Below, piece after piece: positions 4,541-45,212 of a stretch of 64,000 nucleotides of DNA. The stretch is taken from positions 1 through 64,000 of the forward strand of contig CAIQOV010000009.1 in NCBI GenBank assembly GCA_903873585.1, written 5' to 3'. Both the position numbers and the translations under genes were made by a program. The notes under the pieces are model-generated. The model searched no databases and had not been told where the DNA came from. It was given only the letters and a program-made list of their open reading frames with translations. The stretch is from an uncultured Rhodobacterales bacterium (lineage in GTDB: Bacteria; Pseudomonadota; Alphaproteobacteria; Rhodobacterales; Rhodobacteraceae). Within the stretch, counting starts at the first letter, position 1; each line of letters starts with the position of its first letter.

Positions 4541-5491
4541 ATGAAGATGGATCCAAGACAGCTCGAAATCCTCGCCGCCATCGTGCAAGCGGGTGGTTTG
4601 ACCGAAGGCGCAGCCCTTTTGGGCAAGTCGCAGCCTGCCCTGTCACGATCCGTTGCCGCACTTGAGGCGCGCTTGGGGGCTGCGCTGTTTGTGGCGGGTC
4701 GCCGCCCTTTGCAGCCAACCGAGCTGGGTGCGCGCTTGGCCGAGGAAGGGGCGCGCATTCTGCAAGCATCCCAAGCGGCGGGCCAAGCGGTGCAAAGCTT
4801 TCGGCTGGGCAAAGCGGGGGCGGTGCGCGTGGCGGGGACGCCGGTGTTTATGGATGGGGTGATTGTGGCGATGATCGCGGGGTTTCAGGCGCAAAACCCC
4901 GATGTGCGGCTGGAGCAAAGCTATGGCTATGCGCCCGATCTGGCGGCGCTTGTGCAAAGCGGGGCGCTGGATCTGGCGATTTGCCCGCTGCGGCCCGATG
5001 ATCTGCCCGAAGGCCTGGCCTTTGACACGCTATTGCCCGGCCGCAACGTAATTGCCGCACGCGAGGGGCATCCTTTGCTGCACGGCCATGCCATGACGGC
5101 GGCAGACTTGCTGCGCTTTCCGTGGATCGCCCCACCAGCGAACAGCCCGCTTTATGCCGATTTGCAGCGGGTGCTGTCGACGATCAGTTCTGAGCAAATC
5201 CGCATCAGCTATTCGGGCGGCAGTCTTTCTGCGGTGATGGGGATGCTGGCGGGGTCAGACAGTTTGACGGTGCTGCCCTATTCGGTGCTGTTCGCGCTGC
5301 GCCGCCAATACCACGTGGCGGCGCTGTCGATTCGCATCGAACACCCTGACCGCAAACTGGGGCTGCTGTACCGCAATGCTGCGGGCCTTAGCCCCGCCGC
5401 TCGGCGGTTGCGCAGCTTTTTGACAGGGCAGTTTGAAACCTTGGCCGCAACGATCCAGCACCACGAGCGGCAGTCTTTGTGGCGCAGATAA
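4541..5491 (+). CDS. LysR-family transcriptional regulator of the adjacent catabolic operon
   Basis: A 316-residue LTTR. The winged helix-turn-helix covers about residues 5-63, with a recognition region containing GKSQPALSRSVAALEARLG, followed by a periplasmic-binding-protein-like effector domain. Divergent from the maleylacetate reductase across about 78 bases, the classic layout for an LTTR controlling its target operon through a shared promoter. The effector is probably a pathway aromatic or its ring-cleavage product (inference). No strong Shine-Dalgarno separates the ATG at 4541 from the ATG at 4547. I found no convincing T-N11-A operator in the gap. Confidence 0.9.
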   Translation: MKMDPRQLEILAAIVQAGGLTEGAALLGKSQPALSRSVAALEARLGAALFVAGRRPLQPTELGARLAEEGARILQASQAAGQAVQSFRLGKAGAVRVAGTPVFMDGVIVAMIAGFQAQNPDVRLEQSYGYAPDLAALVQSGALDLAICPLRPDDLPEGLAFDTLLPGRNVIAAREGHPLLHGHAMTAADLLRFPWIAPPANSPLYADLQRVLSTISSEQIRISYSGGSLSAVMGMLAGSDSLTVLPYSVLFALRRQYHVAALSIRIEHPDRKLGLLYRNAAGLSPAARRLRSFLTGQFETLAATIQHHERQSLWRR

Positions 5492-10198: not shown

Positions 10199-10957
10199 TT
10201 AAAAGTGGTAATTGAAACCGATTCTGGCCTGATTGTCGGTATAGGTGCCTTCCGTAGAAATCGTTCTATCGGTGCCTTCCACAAACTCCTCTGTTTCAGA
10301 CCCGAAATCAAAGTGCAAATATTCAACCTTCATTGACCAATTTTGGGCAAGCATGAATTCAGCGCCAGCTCCGGCGACCCAACCACTTCTGGTTTCGGTG
10401 ACGGACGGCGTAAAAACCGTCTCACCGCCGTTATAGCTATCTGTCAACTGCGTTTCCAACCCAACGGCAGCGACGCCACCGGTGACATAAAAAAGAGAAC
10501 GGGCAGACGCGAATCCAAGGCGACCGCGTGCCGAGGCGATCCAATCCGCATTGGTTGATACAGAAAAGTTGGTTCCTTGGCCGTCATCAAGAAAGTTGGA
10601 AAGACTGCCGTCAATTGCAGCCTTTGATGCATCTAGTTCAAGGCCATATACTAAGGAATTCGATTAGAAGTTATACCCCACTTCAATCCCAGCAGACAGA
10701 CCGTCCGATGCATAACTGATTCCGGGAATGACAGCCAAAGGATCAGCAGTGATTGAAATATCACCTGTCGAGGATTCTGCCGAATTTGTAGCAAGAATCC
10801 CACCGACATAACCACCCGACCAATCAAAGGCCGGAGCAATCAGAACGGGGGCGACCGTAACAACGGGTTCGACCTGCACCAAGGTCACGCCACCAGCATC
10901 AGCCCCTGAAGCAAGGGCCAAGACTGCGGCGGCGCTGAGTAGAGAAGTTTTGATCAT
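10199..10957 (-). pseudogene. Omp25-like outer-membrane beta-barrel protein interrupted by an in-frame TAA
   Basis: One frame encodes a 252-position small barrel protein: a signal peptide (MIKTSLLSAAAVLALASGADA), repeated barrel strands, and a C-terminal FNYHF ending in the Phe expected of outer-membrane proteins. The frame is broken once by TAA at 10664-10666. Sequence on either side joins naturally (EVGYNF, stop, SNSLVYGLE), and homologous barrels commonly have Gln at this place, so a CAA-to-TAA change is likely. Codon use is AT-richer (TTA, CTA, GTA) than in neighbours. Possible readings are a recent nonsense mutation, stop readthrough or a sequencing error. No other lesion is visible. Confidence 0.8.
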
Positions 10958-11102: not shown

Positions 11103-13964
11103 CTAAGCCACCCTGCCCCGCTTGGCTGTCGCCAGCATGGGTTTTAAATACCGCCCCGTATGGCTGGCCGCAATTTCTGCGACCTGTTCGGGCGTGCCGG
11201 TGGCCACAATCTCGCCACCGCCGTCGCCGCCTTCGGGGCCAATATCGATCAGCCAGTCAGCGGTCTTGATCACGTCAAGGTTGTGCTCAATCACGACCAC
11301 CGTATTGCCTTGATCCACCAAGGAATGCAGCACTTCCAACAACTTGCGCACATCGTCAAAATGCAGGCCGGTTGTGGGTTCATCTAATATATACAGCGTC
11401 TTACCCGTGGCGCGGCGTGACAGTTCTTTGGAAAGCTTCACCCGTTGCGCTTCGCCCCCCGATAGCGTTGTGGCTTGTTGGCCGACCTTAATATAGCCAA
11501 GCCCCACCTCACACAAAGCGTCCATCTTATCACGAATGGCGGGGACGGCTTGGAAAAATTGGGCGGCGTCTTCGCAGGTCATATCAAGAACATCGGCAAT
11601 GCTTTTGTTCTTGAACTTAATTTCCAACGTCTCGCGATTGTAGCGTTGGCCTTTGCAGGTTTCACAGGTCACATAGACATCGGGCAGGAAGTGCATTTCA
11701 ATCTTGATGACGCCGTCGCCCTGACAGGCTTCACACCGCCCGCCTTTAACGTTGAAAGAAAAGCGCCCTGACAAATATCCGCGCGCCTTGGATTCGGGCA
11801 GGCCGGCGAACCAATCCCGTATCGGGGTAAAAGCGCCGGTATAGGTTGCGGGGTTTGAACGAGGTGTGCGGCCAATGGCGCGCTGGTCAATGTCAATCAC
11901 CTTATCAAGATGTTCAAAACCCTTGATCGTTTCGCAAGGCGCTGGCGTTTCATGCGCGCCGTTTAGGCGCATGGCGGCGGTTTTGAACAGGGTTTCAATT
12001 GTCAGCGTTGATTTGCCGCCGCCGGAAACGCCTGTCACACACACAAACATCCCCAAGGGGAAATCCGCTGTCATCGCCTTAAGGTTGTTACCCGTGGCAT
12101 TCACCACCGTCAGCTTTTTGCCATTCCCCTTGCGGCGCACCTTTGCCACCGGAATTGCCCTTGCGCCCGACAGATATTGCCCCGTCATGCTGGCCGGATC
12201 GGCGGCAATCTCGGCCGGTGTGCCGCGCGACACCACCATGCCGCCGTGCACCCCCGCCCCCGGCCCCATGTCAAAGACATAATCCGCCTCGCGGATCGCG
12301 TCTTCGTCGTGTTCCACCACCAAGACCGTATTGCCCGCATCGCGCAGGTTTTTCAGCGTGGTTAAAAGCCTGTCATTGTCGCGCTGGTGCAGCCCGATTG
12401 ACGGTTCATCAAGCACGTAAAGCACCCCCGTCAACCCCGACCCGATCTGCGAGGCCAGACGGATCCGTTGGCTTTCCCCGCCCGACAAGGTGCCAGCATT
12501 GCGGCTCATCGTCAGGTAGTTCAGGCCGACGTTGACCAAGAACCCCAGTCTTTCGCGGATTTCTTTGAGGATCGCTTTGGCAATCTCGTTCTGCTGGCCC
12601 GTCAGCTTTTCGGGCACAGCGCCGACCCAAGCAAAGGCCTCGGCAATCGACATTTGCACCACTTGGCCCGCGTGCAGGCCCGCGATTTTGACGGCCAAAG
12701 CTTCGGGGCGCAGGCGGTAGCCGTGGCAGGTGCCGCAGGGGCGGTTGTTTTGAAAGCGCTCCATCTCTTCGCGGCTCCACGCCGAGTCGGTTTCTTTGTA
12801 GCGGCGTTCCATATTGGGAACGACCCCTTCAAAGATGCGCTTGACGGTATAGATGCGCCCGCCTTCGTCGTAGCGAAATTCGATCTCTTCCCCACCCGAA
12901 CCGCGCAGGAAAACCTCTTTCACCGCATCGGGCAGGTCTTTCCATTTCTTTTTCTTATCAAAGCCGTAGTGGGTGGCCATGGCGTCGATGGTTTGGGTGA
13001 AATAGGGCGATTTCGATTTGGCCCAAGGCGCTATTGCCCCCTGTGCAAGGGTTAGGCTTTGGTCGGGCACCACGAGGCGTTCGTCAAAGAACAGCTCCAT
13101 CCCCAAGCCGTCACAGGCAGGGCAGGCCCCGAACGGCGCGTTGAAGGAAAACAGGCGGGGTTCGATTTCGGCGATGGTAAAACCGCTGACGGGGCAGGCG
13201 AATTTTTCCGAATAGGTGATGCGCACAGGCTCACCTTCAGCGGGGGCGGTTTCGATCACGGCAATGCCGTCGGCAAGGTTCAGCGCCGTGCGGAAACTGT
13301 CGGCCAGCCGTGTCTGCAAGCCATCGCGCACCACGATGCGGTCCACCACCACGTCGATGTCATGGCGCAGTTTTTTATCCAGTGTGGGCGGTTCATCCAG
13401 ATCGTAAAAGGTGCCGTCGACCTTAACGCGCTGAAAGCCCTGCTTGCGCAAGTCAAGGAATTCTTTGCGATATTCGCCCTTGCGGTCGCGCACCAAGGGG
13501 GCCAGCAGATAGGCGCGCGCGCCTTCTTCCATCGCCATGACGGCATCGACCATGTCTTGCACCTGCATCGCGGTGATGGGCAGGCCGGTGGCGGGCGAAT
13601 AGGGAATGCCGACGCGCGCGAACAGCAGGCGCAGGTAATCGTAAATCTCGGTCACTGTGCCCACGGTCGAGCGCGGGTTTTTCGAGGTGGTCTTTTGTTC
13701 AATCGAAATGGCGGGCGACAGGCCGCTGATATGGTCAACATCGGGCTTGCCCGCCATATCAAGGAACTGGCGCGCATAGGCTGACAGGCTTTCAACATAG
13801 CGGCGCTGGCCTTCGGCATAGATCGTATCGAAGGCCAACGACGATTTGCCCGACCCCGACAGCCCCGTGATCACCACGAACTGGTCGCGCGGAATATCCA
13901 CATCGACGTTCTTTAGATTATGCTCGCGCGCGCCGCGCACTTCGATGAACTTCTGCTCTGCCAT
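11103..13964 (-). CDS. uvrA: Excinuclease ABC subunit A
   Basis: A 953-residue UvrA, the DNA-damage recognition ATPase of nucleotide excision repair. It has two ABC modules: Walker A motifs GLSGSGKSS (near residue 35) and GVSGGGKST (near 648), and signature motifs [12 protein letters not shown] and [12 protein letters not shown]. Both zinc-binding cysteine clusters are present, including [11 protein letters not shown] with [10 protein letters not shown]. It is divergent from the rhodanese gene across 164 bases. I did not recognise a LexA-type box upstream. Confidence 0.98.
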
Positions 13965-41485: not shown

Positions 41486-42616
41486 TTAGAGCGGTTCTAT
41501 ATCGCCTTGCGCGCGCTGTGCGTGAAACTGGGCGACAAAGGCGCCCAGTTCGCCTGCCGCAATCGCACCCCGCAGGCCCTGCATCAACTCTTGGAAATAA
41601 TGCAGGTTGTGCCATGTCAAAAGCATGCTTGAGATGATTTCTTCGGCCTTGAACACGTGGTGCAGATAGGCACGGCTGTAGCCTTGGCAGCAAGGGCAGG
41701 TGCAGGCTTCATCAATCGGGCGCGGGTCGTTCTGGTGGCGGGCGTTCTTGATCGCCACGGGGCCACGCCGTGTCCAAACCTGCCCCGTCCGACCAGAGCG
41801 CGAGGGCAGCACGCAGTCCATCATATCAATGCCGCGTTCCACTGCGCCCACGATGTCATCAGGCTTGCCCACGCCCATCAGGTAGCGTGGCTTGTCGTCG
41901 GGCAGCATGTCGGGGGCATAGTCTAGCACGCCAAACATCGCCTCTTGCCCCTCGCCCACAGCCAGCCCGCCCACGGCATAGCCGTCAAAGCCAATCGCCC
42001 GCAGGGCATCGGCACTTTCGCCGCGCAGATCGCGGTTCACGCCGCCTTGTTGAATGCCAAACAACGCGTGCCCCGGCCTGTCGCCAAAGGCTTGGCGCGA
42101 CCGATCGGCCCAGCGCATCGACATCCGCATAGATTGCGCCACCGCCGCATCTGTGGCGGGCAAGGCGGGGCATTCGTCAAAGCACATCACAATGTCAGAC
42201 CCCAGCAGGCGCTGAATCTCCATGCTGCGTTCGGGGGTCAGCATATGTTTTGACCCGTCGATATGCGATGAAAAGCGCACCCCCTCTTCGGTCAGTTTGC
42301 GCAAAGCTGACAGGCTCATCACCTGAAACCCGCCGGAATCGGTCAGGATCGGGCGCTGCCAGTTCATGAATTTGTGCAACCCGCCCAAAGCCGCGATGCG
42401 TTCCGCCGTGGGGCGCAGCATCAGGTGATAGGTGTTGCCCAACAGAATATCCGCCCCCGTGGCGCGCACCGAACCTGGCATCATCGCCTTGACGGTCGCC
42501 GCCGTGCCCACAGGCATAAAGGCTGGCGTGCGAATATCGCCCCGCGGGGTTGAAATCACCCCAGTGCGCGCGCGGCCATCTTTGGCGTGAATGTCAAAAG
42601 CAAAGCGTTGGGTCAT
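41486..42616 (-). CDS. tgt: Queuine/preQ1 tRNA-guanine transglycosylase
   Basis: A 376-residue TGT, which swaps guanine 34 for preQ1 in tRNAs with GUN anticodons. The [12 protein letters not shown]-like segment ([12 protein letters not shown]) holds one active-site Asp, and zinc ligands lie in [20 protein letters not shown] at 42616 has ACGGAG upstream; an in-frame reading that extends 141 codons further would run across the divergent TetR gene and is rejected. It acts in the same pathway as queA at 18 kb. Confidence 0.97.
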
Positions 42617-42685
42617 GGCGGTCTCCGTTCGCTTGCCCTTCTGCGTCAGACGCGCCAAAAAGCCAAGAGGAGCCATCGCACCATC

Positions 42686-43276
42686 ATGCCAGACCCAAGC
42701 CCCCGCGCCAAAGCCCGCCGCCTTGCGATTGCGCAGGCCGCGTTGACCTGCCTGCAACGCGGAGGTTACGCCAAACTGACCGCGCGCAAAATCGCGGCGC
42801 AAGCGGGGATGTCGCCCGGCCATATTTCCTACCACTTCGCCAATATGGACGAGGTGCTGTCGGAAGCCTACATTCTCGCCTCCAGCCGCCTGCGCCAAGC
42901 CGAAGAGACGCTGCTTGCCAGCACTTTCACCCCCGCCCTCCGGCTTGAGGCCTTTCTCGCCGCAGGCTTCACGCCGGATATTCTTGCGCCAGATCATCTG
43001 CGCATGCGGGTGGATTTGTGGAGCGTGGCCCTGCAACACCCCACCATCGCCGCGACCGAACGCGCCCTATACGACCGCTACCGCACAGCCCTGACCCAGC
43101 ATTTGACGGCCCTGTCTTCGCCCGCCAAAACCGCGCAAATCCCTGCTGTGGCCGACCTGATCATGGCCACCTTGGATGGGCTGTGGCTAGATTGGCTGCG
43201 CCGCAATGATGCAGGGGCGGTGGCCAACGGGTTGCGGCTGTGCTTGGCGCTGGCGAGGGCAGAGTTGGGCGCTTAG
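42686..43276 (+). CDS. TetR-family transcriptional regulator
   Basis: A 196-residue TetR/AcrR protein, BetI-like in overall layout. The N-terminal helix-turn-helix is [31 protein letters not shown], of which the core [14 protein letters not shown] contacts DNA; a ligand-binding helical domain follows. Divergent from tgt and upstream of the ubiquitin-fold gene on the same strand. Its target is unknown; the GTACA-TC-TGTAC dyad 3 kb away is a candidate only by operator type. The nearest Shine-Dalgarno (AGAGGAG) is further than usual from the ATG. Confidence 0.9.
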
Positions 43277-43375: not shown

Positions 43376-44442
43376 ATGTTTCGCACCTGCGCGCTGAGCG
43401 CCGCTGTCATGATCTGCGCCGCACAGGCGGTTGAGGCGATGACGATATTTGTCGTGCAGGCCGACGGCGTTTCCCATGCTCTAGAAGTGGAACCTTCAGA
43501 TACAATTGACAACGTCAAACAAAAAATCTCGGATGAGGGCGGGCAAGGGTTAGGCATACCACAAGACAAGCAAAGACTGTTTTTTGGCGGCCAGTTGCTT
43601 GAAGATGGGCCAACGCTTTCTGACTATGGGATCGGGAACCAAGCCACGATTTGGCTAAACCCCTCCACCGTATCCAACACAATCGCCTATCGCAGCGCCA
43701 TCGCACAGCTTGGCGCTGTCACTGATGCCATCAAAACGCGGGTGCGCGGTGGTGCAGGCAAGGGTGGCTTTTGGGCGTCAAGCACCGCCTTGGCGGCGGA
43801 TCAGGGACAGGGTGGCGCGTTGACCTTTGGCCTTGATCGCCCCTTTGGCGCGCAGGGCCTGATCGGGGTTTACGCCAGCATGGCTGGGCACAGGGCACCG
43901 ATGCCATCGCCCAATCCCCCGCTCTTGGCCTGTACATCGGCCTGCCCATTGCCCCCAATTGGGCACTGGATGGGCAGATAGGTACAGCGCGACCAGAGTA
44001 TAAGGGGGGGAAGGGCAGCTTTTCCAGCGACCGCCTTATGGGTTCGTTCGGGGTCACGGGCCGTTGGGCCACCGCCAGCCTAACGCTAGACCCCAGCCTG
44101 CGCGTGTCTTTCACCGATGAAACCATCCCGACCCATGACGAAGGCGTGGTGACACTGGCCGAAGATCACCAGCACACCACCCACGCCGCAGCCACTTTGC
44201 GCGCGACAGGGTTGCGGGCTATGGGCACAATGGGCCTGACGCCCTATGCCGAGGTCAGCCTTGCGCGCACCAGCCTGTCGTCGACCATCCAAGGCGACCA
44301 GATACAGGCCACAGGTGCCGCGGTACTGGGTGTTGGCACCTTTCTCGGTACGGGCAGCGTAACGGCTGACCTGTCAGCCACCGCCCAAAATGGCAGCGCA
44401 CCGACGATCAGCCTAAGCACCACCTACAGCGTCAGCTTCTAA
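43376..44442 (+). pseudogene. Exported ubiquitin-fold protein fused to an outer-membrane beta-barrel, frameshifted
   Basis: Order: signal peptide (1-21, ending AAQAVEA), ubiquitin domain (22-96), helical linker with SAIAQLGAVTDAIKTRV and a Gly-rich RGGAGKGG, then a beta-barrel ending in YSVSF with the terminal Phe of outer-membrane proteins. The ubiquitin part has LEVEPSDTIDNVKQKI and LEDGPTLSDYGI, with 41 of 72 positions identical to eukaryotic ubiquitin by hand alignment plus a 4-residue insert. It lacks the C-terminal Gly-Gly; the Lys48 position is Gln, while Lys27 and Lys29 are kept. The layout fits an autotransporter with ubiquitin as passenger. A one-base loss near 43883-43896 shifts the barrel frame: GLIGVYASMAG before, GTDAIAQSPALGLYIGLPI after. 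TATAGGA precedes the ATG. Real pseudogene, phase variant or sequence error cannot be told apart here. Confidence 0.85.
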
Positions 44443-45212
44443 CGCCCCGCATCCTGCGCCAGCAAGAACTGGCGCACATGGGGTAGAACCACCTCGCTCG
44501 CCTCGATGAAGATCGCGTGTTTAAGCTTGTCTAGGATCACCAATTCCGACCCCGGCAGGGCCTGATGGATAAGCATGTTCAGGCGCGGGTTGCAGCCGCC
44601 GTCCAACTCGCCCGTGATGATCTGACAGGGGGCTTTCACCTGATGCAGCCACGGGGCCATTTCGGTTTCGGCATAGATATCAAAGACATTCAGGAAAACA
44701 TCAGCGTCCGTGTCCATCACTTGGGCCTTGCGCCAGTCAATCACATCGGGGCGCGCAGCACAAAACGCATCGGTGAACCAGCGCGCGGTCAGCGTATCCA
44801 GCACCGGACCGATACCCTTTTCGCGCATCAGTTTCACCACGCCCATGACCTTGGCGCTGTCATCTTCGGTGCGAAAGGCGGCAGTTGACCACAGGCCCAG
44901 CGACAGCACCCTGTCAGGATAGCGCAGCGCATAGCGCGGGCCGATCATGCCACCCAAGGAATGCCCCGCGAAATGCGCCTGTTCGATGCCAAGGCGCGCG
45001 CGCAGCTCCTCTAGATCATCCACCAGATCATCCAAGCCAAACTGGCCCGCAGGTAAGGGCGACAGCCCATGCCCGCGCAGATCGTAAGATATGCAGGTGA
45101 ACCGATCGCGCAAGCCTTCGACCAGCCGATCAAACGTGGCCCGCCGCGCGCCAATGCCGTGGATCAAGAACACAGCAGGCCCCTCGCCCGCCACCGAATA
45201 GGCGCTGCGCAT
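44439..45212 (-). CDS. Alpha/beta hydrolase
   Basis: A 257-residue alpha/beta-fold hydrolase with the oxyanion segment FLIHGIGARR, the nucleophile elbow GHSLGGMIG and late Asp/His candidates (ELDGGCNP, DKLKHAIF). It resembles enol-lactone hydrolases and C-C hydrolases of aromatic degradation, but the substrate is open. Third gene of the LLM/tautomerase/hydrolase operon, three bases after the tautomerase. Its stop overlaps the stop of the convergent ubiquitin-fold gene. Confidence 0.88.
   Translation of the reverse strand: MRSAYSVAGEGPAVFLIHGIGARRATFDRLVEGLRDRFTCISYDLRGHGLSPLPAGQFGLDDLVDDLEELRARLGIEQAHFAGHSLGGMIGPRYALRYPDRVLSLGLWSTAAFRTEDDSAKVMGVVKLMREKGIGPVLDTLTARWFTDAFCAARPDVIDWRKAQVMDTDADVFLNVFDIYAETEMAPWLHQVKAPCQIITGELDGGCNPRLNMLIHQALPGSELVILDKLKHAIFIEASEVVLPHVRQFLLAQDAGR

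Follow-up and report, generated by a model that had tools for sequence, protein, structure and literature searches.

Exported ubiquitin has been studied in Bacteroides fragilis, whose BfUbb is described in parts of two papers as a secreted protein that starts at ubiquitin Met1 and lacks the terminal Gly (PMC5705921, PMC3352274). According to the same parts, BfUbb inhibits other B. fragilis strains (PMC5705921) and binds human E1 in vitro (PMC3352274). In addition, ubiquitin-like proteins with signal peptides have been reported in a sponge-symbiont alphaproteobacterium, which is the nearest published case that we found (part of PMC10947273), and ubiquitin has been displayed in the laboratory on Escherichia coli via the OmpA, OmpC, and InaZ anchors (part of PMC11015686). 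Here, we analyzed a window, that is, the whole stretch of 64,000 nucleotides at the start of contig CAIQOV010000009.1 of an uncultured Rhodobacterales bacterium (GCA_903873585.1). The gene of interest (43376-44442, plus strand) very probably has the architecture of a signal peptide, a ubiquitin domain, and an autotransporter-type barrel. A description of such a ubiquitin-autotransporter fusion was not found in the open-licence PMC literature, for part of which only the best matches were covered.

The first part of the gene is an open reading frame (ORF) of 201 residues (43376-43981, plus strand), which covers the signal peptide, the ubiquitin domain, and the start of the barrel. The signal peptide (21 residues, 43376-43438) has a hydrophobic run and small residues at -3 and -1, and it ends with Val-Glu-Ala, with the predicted cut immediately before ubiquitin residue 1. 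Here and in the comparison of 27 loci below, cleavage was predicted not with a dedicated predictor but with a simple rule that asks for a small residue at -1 and a permitted one at -3, the hydrophobic run being noted alongside. The ubiquitin domain (43439-43660) matched PF00240 over residues 25-94 of the window protein with 62.4 bits (E = 3.3e-17), and the curated cut-off is 25.4 bits. Furthermore, it was identical to eukaryotic ubiquitin at 41 of the 69 aligned positions, and the original prediction, made from the sequence alone, had counted about 41 of 72 by hand. In the PDB sequence search, there were 370 distinct matches at E <= 0.01, and the best 60 of the 370 were ubiquitins or engineered forms. 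AlphaFold2, with a 16-row alignment, predicted the ubiquitin (beta-grasp) fold, and the block means of confidence for residues 21-100 were 94, 95, 96, 76, 94, 97, 97, and 84. The value of 76 falls on a 4-residue insert behind the helix, and that of 84 on the domain end; the confidence was low past residue 100. When this model was compared with the PDB by Foldseek, ubiquitins or engineered ubiquitins came first among the matches listed, with a root-mean-square deviation of 0.7-1.6 in 49 of the 50 best rows and 4.7 in one, and the B. fragilis protein (8hm1) ranked 48. Thus, the presence of a signal peptide and a true ubiquitin domain, as proposed originally, was confirmed at the level of sequence and predicted fold.

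The window domain was the only PF00240 match in its genome. It has no C-terminal Gly-Gly for conjugation; the chain continues as NPSTVSN and then as the barrel. In addition, its residues are Ala at 8, Phe at 44, Gln at 48, Asn at 63, and Trp at 68. The missing tail and the changes at 8, 44, Lys48, and Lys63 are among those that the original prediction had listed. Meanwhile, the E2 enzyme family PF00179 had no match in this genome, but it also had none in the 14 control genomes.

The second part of the gene is a barrel that is split between two frames. Behind the ubiquitin domain lies a linker (43661-43744) with a helix predicted by AlphaFold2 at low confidence (residues 106-123), which could be aligned among the relatives. 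The first part of the barrel (43745-43880) is in the ubiquitin frame, and the linker together with this part (43661-43873) was 58.6% identical to a relative in the same genus, G015, over 70 residues. From about residue 166 onward, the relatives are matched in another frame, up to 44442. This remainder (43876-44442) was 64.7% identical to G015 over 187 residues and ends with Ser-Phe and the stop; in the C-terminal piece translated from 43858 to 44442, the homology begins at about 43876 and the end reads SVSF. Furthermore, the G015 barrel, used as query against the window's genome, recovered both pieces (51% and 64% identical). Thus, the assembly has a break in the window gene near 43.88 kb, and both a mutation and a sequencing error are possible. 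Phase variation at this place was considered and rejected, for no homopolymer of at least six bases lies at the break, either in the window or in another broken relative, G202. A run of seven A was found near the ubiquitin-barrel junction of the broken gene in G748, so slippage is possible in G748 only. Intact relatives, a search for which the original prediction had suggested, exist in the same genus and at the same locus, namely in G002 (371 residues) and in G015 (371 residues from the first start codon and 350 from the likelier one).

The assignment of this barrel to the autotransporters is indirect. A Pfam scan of the window pieces gave no autotransporter match, and PF03797, the family originally suggested for the remainder of the protein, did not match them either. 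With a PF03797 cut-off of 26 bits, the G015 barrel (22.7 bits) and the first piece of G202 (18.3 bits) were below it, and the G002 barrel had no match. We then compared the barrel profile of the window group with that of a five-protein barrel family by hhalign, and the probability was 99.4% (E = 3.8e-21, 216 columns). Three members of this family were scanned, and PF03797 was passed by L031 (58.6 bits) and L025 (27.7 bits), with no match for L026. On this transitive homology, the window barrel is taken as an autotransporter-type beta-domain, and the earlier claim of a C-terminal barrel ending in Phe can be kept.

The fusion is not confined to the window. PF00240 matches above the cut-off were found in 3 of 101 genomes of relatives, 3 of 394 of the family, 5 of 385 of the class (plus one below the cut-off), and 2 of 398 of the phylum. 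These sets overlap, and the matches come from ten different genomes. Nine of the ten (G000, G002, G015, G202, G220, G571, G573, G669, and G748) have the sequence of a signal peptide, a ubiquitin, and a barrel; the frame is broken in G000, G202, and G748, and the contig of G220 ends inside the barrel sequence. The tenth, G837 (locus L084), matched PF00240 weakly (26.6 bits), and no signal peptide could be seen in it by eye, and G780 (L042) was below the cut-off. Single intact ORFs passed both halves in G669 (L038; PF00240 6.6e-30, PF03797 1.1e-27), G573 (L041; 1.6e-16 and 1.8e-24), and G571 (L039; PF00240 1.2e-26, TIGR01414 47.3 bits against a cut-off of 16 bits). In G748, the barrel frame that adjoins the ubiquitin frame had 44.4 bits for TIGR01414. 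L002 and L003 are likewise single intact ORFs matched by PF00240, with the barrel recognized via the PF03797 scan and hhalign. By BLASTP at E = 0.01, three groups of barrels had no mutual match: the window, G002, G015, G202, and G220; G571 and G748; G669 and G573. Together with two IMG/VR contigs described below, the fusion thus recurs, as judged by sequence, in nine genomes and these two contigs with at least three barrel groups unlike each other by BLASTP. Of the original interpretation, the exported ubiquitin without Gly-Gly that is fused to an autotransporter-type barrel holds up. However, the suggestion that a TRVRGG stretch in the linker recalls the ubiquitin tail or forms a cleavage site does not. 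At this place, G015 reads SRVQDA and G002 reads NRISAR in the alignment; by motif match, G220 reads ARVAGR, L080 DRLRGT, G571 SRLTGG, and G748 SRISGG, and TRVRLH was read in G202, whereas the motif search did not locate the place in G669 and G573. Gly-Gly thus occurs at this place in three of eight, and the stretch is better read as the linker end before the barrel.

The two IMG/VR contigs, L080 and L081, hold an intact fused version. The L080 protein (481 residues) matched PF00240 (5.5e-24) and PF03797 (3.5e-17) and also passed the TIGR01414 cut-off; its barrel was 25-27% identical to those of G669 and G573 by BLASTP and weakly matched the window piece (E = 5e-4). In the 11.2 kb studied of its 50.5-kb contig, the fused gene lies between the genes of a tail assembly chaperone and a tape measure protein, and a tail terminator and a minor tail protein precede it. 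These assignments are from PHROGs, which matched six of the seven proteins; the seventh, for which PHROGs had no family, is the fused protein. A direct repeat of 167 bp (87% identical) flanks the fused gene. We also noted, in the L080 part between 1038 and 10897, a further repeat of 221 bp (90% identical) that starts in the tail terminator gene. L081 and L080 were 96.8% identical in DNA over 4.4 kb, and no match to L080 was found in the GenBank phage records at 1e-5. Among plasmids, two records matched L038, across the signal peptide and ubiquitin only. A 'ubiquitin family protein' on plasmid pRUMAL01 of Ruminococcus albus 7 (L085, 2498-3238) is 62.9% identical to the L038 signal peptide plus ubiquitin, and its neighbors are hypothetical genes, a PI-PLC-domain protein, and a dockerin protein. 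Meanwhile, a gene that looks integrase-like by eye (L071, 7169-8170) directly adjoins the G573 fused gene, and polA-like, ABC ATPase, and amidohydrolase neighbors (by eye) are common to the G573 and G669 fused loci.

To see the wider distribution, genome contigs were scanned with the window ubiquitin, and 17 loci were obtained from several phyla. At 24 of the 27 loci compared, among them all ten fused ones, residue 1 of ubiquitin immediately follows the predicted signal peptide. The exceptions are L004, L015, and L018, of which L018 fails the cleavage rule despite a strong hydrophobic run. L004, without signal peptide, is identical to eukaryotic ubiquitin at 66 of 69 positions and is possibly contamination. 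L015 is a ubiquitin-like ORF of Pseudomonas capsici (5001-5219; 45 of 69 identical) without signal peptide by the rule, and L014 (3983-4246) is a signal peptide plus ubiquitin at the contig end of a metagenome-assembled genome labelled Methanothrix, an archaeon, which may be misbinned. L004, L015, and G837 (L084), all without signal peptide, were set aside. A scan of eight non-barrel ubiquitin proteins for sorting signals detected a type IX secretion system (T9SS) domain in L012 (29.9 bits, cut-off 23) and a PEP-CTERM domain in L017 (19.0 bits, cut-off 16). There were near misses in L010 (IPTL-CTERM, 19.4 bits against 20.5) and L013 (VPLPA-CTERM, 24.9 against 25.35), and none was found in L005, L006, L008, and L019. 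These domains of L012 and L017 are surface-sorting domains and point outward.

Conversely, the barrel family is found with other passengers. Barrel relatives were present in 12 of the 394 family genomes, of which the window's genome and G202 carry ubiquitin. At the 11 barrel loci of the other ten genomes, there was no ubiquitin match (tblastn at the locus and PF00240 over the 394 genomes). Nine of the 11 have a different N-terminal part of 103-308 residues ahead of the barrel match (L024-L028, L030-L032, and L035 combine the same barrel family with another N-terminal part in place of ubiquitin); L029 is truncated where its contig stops, and in L023 the frame stays open for only 43 residues upstream. 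In addition, the window itself holds a second barrel-like gene (10199-10957, minus strand) in two pieces with an internal stop and with 20.6 bits for PF03797, below the cut-off. It adjoins a gene at 11103-13964 that by eye we take to be uvrA-like.

The fused gene has a patchy distribution at its own site. Directly upstream lies a TetR-family regulator (42587-43276, plus strand; PF00440 and PF13977; the true start is probably further in), which G002 and G006 also have at this site. The site is marked by a convergent alpha/beta hydrolase (44439-45212, minus strand; PF00561) and, by synteny, by a gene that looks tgt-like from its sequence (41486-43039, minus strand; this is the longest ORF, and the true start is probably lower). 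Some homologue of the hydrolase occurs in 16 of 16 genus genomes, and the site was examined in the nine with a close homologue. Three of these nine have the fused gene at the site: the window and G002, both with TetR, and G015, where TetR was not matched. The hydrolase and tgt matches are about 100-125 bp apart in G004, G005, and G013, which is too little for either TetR or the fused gene; in G006, TetR is present and the fused gene is not; and in G003 and G014, neither tgt nor the fused gene was found within 1.5 kb. Thus, gain or loss of the fused gene occurs at a single place. A scan for promoters and terminators gave nothing above chance.

We further examined how the fused gene has evolved. 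The ratio of nonsynonymous to synonymous substitution (omega) between the window and G015 was 0.23 in the ubiquitin part, where synonymous divergence (dS) is near saturation at 2.14, and 0.32 and 0.39 in the two barrel pieces. In every comparison made, omega or the corresponding ratio of uncorrected proportions (pN/pS) was below 0.5. In each of the ten fused ubiquitins, 12-14 of 14 core positions are conserved, whereas L8, I44, K48, Q49, and H68 are among 14 positions kept in at most five of the ten; for instance, L8 is conserved in 4, I44 in 5, and K48 in 4. On the Ile44 face, changed positions were 5 of 9 versus 9 of 46 elsewhere (P = 0.037), with the test picked after seeing the data. The proportion of guanine plus cytosine (GC) was 0.49 in the ubiquitin part versus 0.64 in the barrel, a value as low as that of 1.5% of 862 window stretches, and ubiquitin composition itself may add to it. 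Furthermore, synonymous divergence (pS) between the window and G015 was 0.707 in the ubiquitin part (70 codons) versus 0.425 in the rest compared (247 codons), which was reached in 4 of 20,000 permutations. With identical residues only, the values were 18 of 31 versus 55 of 156 against G015 (P = 0.026), and 20 of 36 and 62 of 102 against G002 (P = 0.69). Passenger swapping between the window and G015 was thus considered only suggestive and was not adopted. A ubiquitin tree of 28 rows had one of 25 inner branches starred, and one origin and many origins of the fused ubiquitins were not separated by it.

Taken together, we propose, with a probability of roughly 45%, that the gene product is an outer-membrane-tethered, non-conjugatable ubiquitin that acts on neighboring cells. 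Sec would export the fused protein, and signal peptidase would cut immediately before ubiquitin Met1, as with BfUbb. The barrel would then insert into the outer membrane, and the folded ubiquitin, with no free C-terminus, would end up on the surface of the cell (or of vesicles). Such a tethered ubiquitin would not be conjugatable, because it has neither a free C-terminus nor Gly-Gly. It would serve as a binding module that acts by contact on neighboring cells, which, as for BfUbb, are most likely other bacteria. The target of BfUbb is reportedly a peptidyl-prolyl isomerase. A role in antagonism would agree with the changing binding face, the gain and loss at one locus, and the phage-borne copy. 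By analogy, action on other bacteria is tentatively suggested, whereas surface exposure of the ubiquitin is probable. The display of ubiquitin on E. coli, as far as that part of PMC11015686 goes, makes surface display possible, though with other anchors.

Several observations weigh against this proposal. Autotransporter passengers cross the barrel in an unfolded state, and ubiquitin is a stable domain that folds quickly, so the ubiquitin may stay in the periplasm. BfUbb is untethered. In a direct hhalign comparison of the window barrel profile with a profile of five other barrels (two from its own genome, L038, L041, and L080), the probability was 1.3%, and AlphaFold2 with an 8-row alignment did not predict a barrel for the L080 protein (block means 22-35 beyond residue 110). 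A family scan of the two direct neighbors revealed no recognizable immunity or toxin gene beside the fused gene. In addition, the fused gene evolves faster than the neighboring hydrolase (omega 0.07). It is broken in the window, which could reflect decay after little use, and decay is also possible in G202, broken within the barrel, and in G748, broken between ubiquitin and barrel.

The breaks would be expected if horizontally caught ubiquitin genes had been fused to export signals and were drifting to decay with no function of their own. Breakage in three of nine genomes with a fourth, G220, stopping at a contig end, the rarity of the gene (3 of 394 family, 6 of 385 class with one below the cut-off, and 2 of 398 phylum genomes), and the GC contrast all agree with this. 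However, the conserved core, the ratios below 0.5 in all comparisons, a cleavage site that is exactly the same at 24 of the 27 loci, and the occurrence of three or more barrels unlike each other make such drift improbable, and of all the explanations it is given the least weight. The fast and stable folding of ubiquitin would also agree with a barrel that anchors the folded domain in the periplasm, where it would act in its own cell, for example on an envelope folding factor, and a peptidyl-prolyl isomerase as the reported target of BfUbb would fit such a role. The surface-sorting domains of L012 and L017 argue otherwise, and we consider a periplasmic role unlikely.

The displayed ubiquitin might instead be a decoy or inhibitor directed at a eukaryotic predator or host, whose E1, deubiquitinases, or ubiquitin-binding proteins it would engage; this is close to the original idea. 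Such mimicry is also unlikely, at about the level of the periplasmic role. L8, I44, and H68 are retained in some copies (G002, G202, and G571), and the binding of human E1 by BfUbb (part of PMC3352274) and the signal peptides of the sponge-symbiont proteins (part of PMC10947273) point the same way. However, residues 8, 44, and 68 are all changed in the window (A8, F44, W68), G573, L080, and G220 (M8, F44, Q68), and few parts of the fused ubiquitins have changed as much as the Ile44 face. A kept core with a varied Ile44 face weakens simple host mimicry. Several carriers presumably live in soil or water and have no known host, and to our knowledge there is no protist receptor for outside ubiquitin; both count against mimicry. 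Furthermore, the studied exported bacterial ubiquitin, BfUbb, acts on bacteria, according to part of PMC5705921.

Returning to the tethered, non-conjugatable ubiquitin, the fusions may, more speculatively, be a branch of a wide and little-noticed class of exported, envelope-anchored bacterial ubiquitins with three or more kinds of barrel and T9SS or PEP-CTERM-like anchors. These would be tethered modules of recognition or antagonism that are horizontally exchanged and also carried by a phage. BfUbb would then be placed inside a wider class of exported bacterial ubiquitins. If this is true, ubiquitin is a repeatedly recruited surface weapon or receptor of bacteria that needs no conjugation. Ubiquitin is the emblem of eukaryotic cells, and repeated exported and anchored copies in bacteria would give its fold a second, conjugation-free life. 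The intact genes of G002, G015, G669, G571, and L080 make surface display and target directly testable.

Compared with known systems, the fusions resemble the classical monomeric autotransporters (PF03797, TIGR01414) in the signal peptide, the N-terminal passenger, the linker, the C-terminal barrel, and the Phe end in most of them, and the cut-offs were passed by L038, L041, and L080 for PF03797 and by L039, G748, and L080 for TIGR01414. However, they carry ubiquitin, of about 75 residues, as the passenger, and the window subfamily is below the PF03797 cut-off. The secreted ubiquitins of plant-parasitic nematodes, as described in part of PMC5705921, likewise combine a signal peptide, ubiquitin, and a C-terminal extension and are aimed at another organism, but they are eukaryotic, with an extension of 12 residues and without membrane anchor. 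BfUbb shares with the fusions the predicted cut directly before ubiquitin Met1, the absence of the Gly-Gly end, and the patchy presence, since it occurs in some strains only. However, BfUbb is a free protein of 76 residues, whereas here the ubiquitin is the N-terminal part of a predicted outer-membrane barrel protein.
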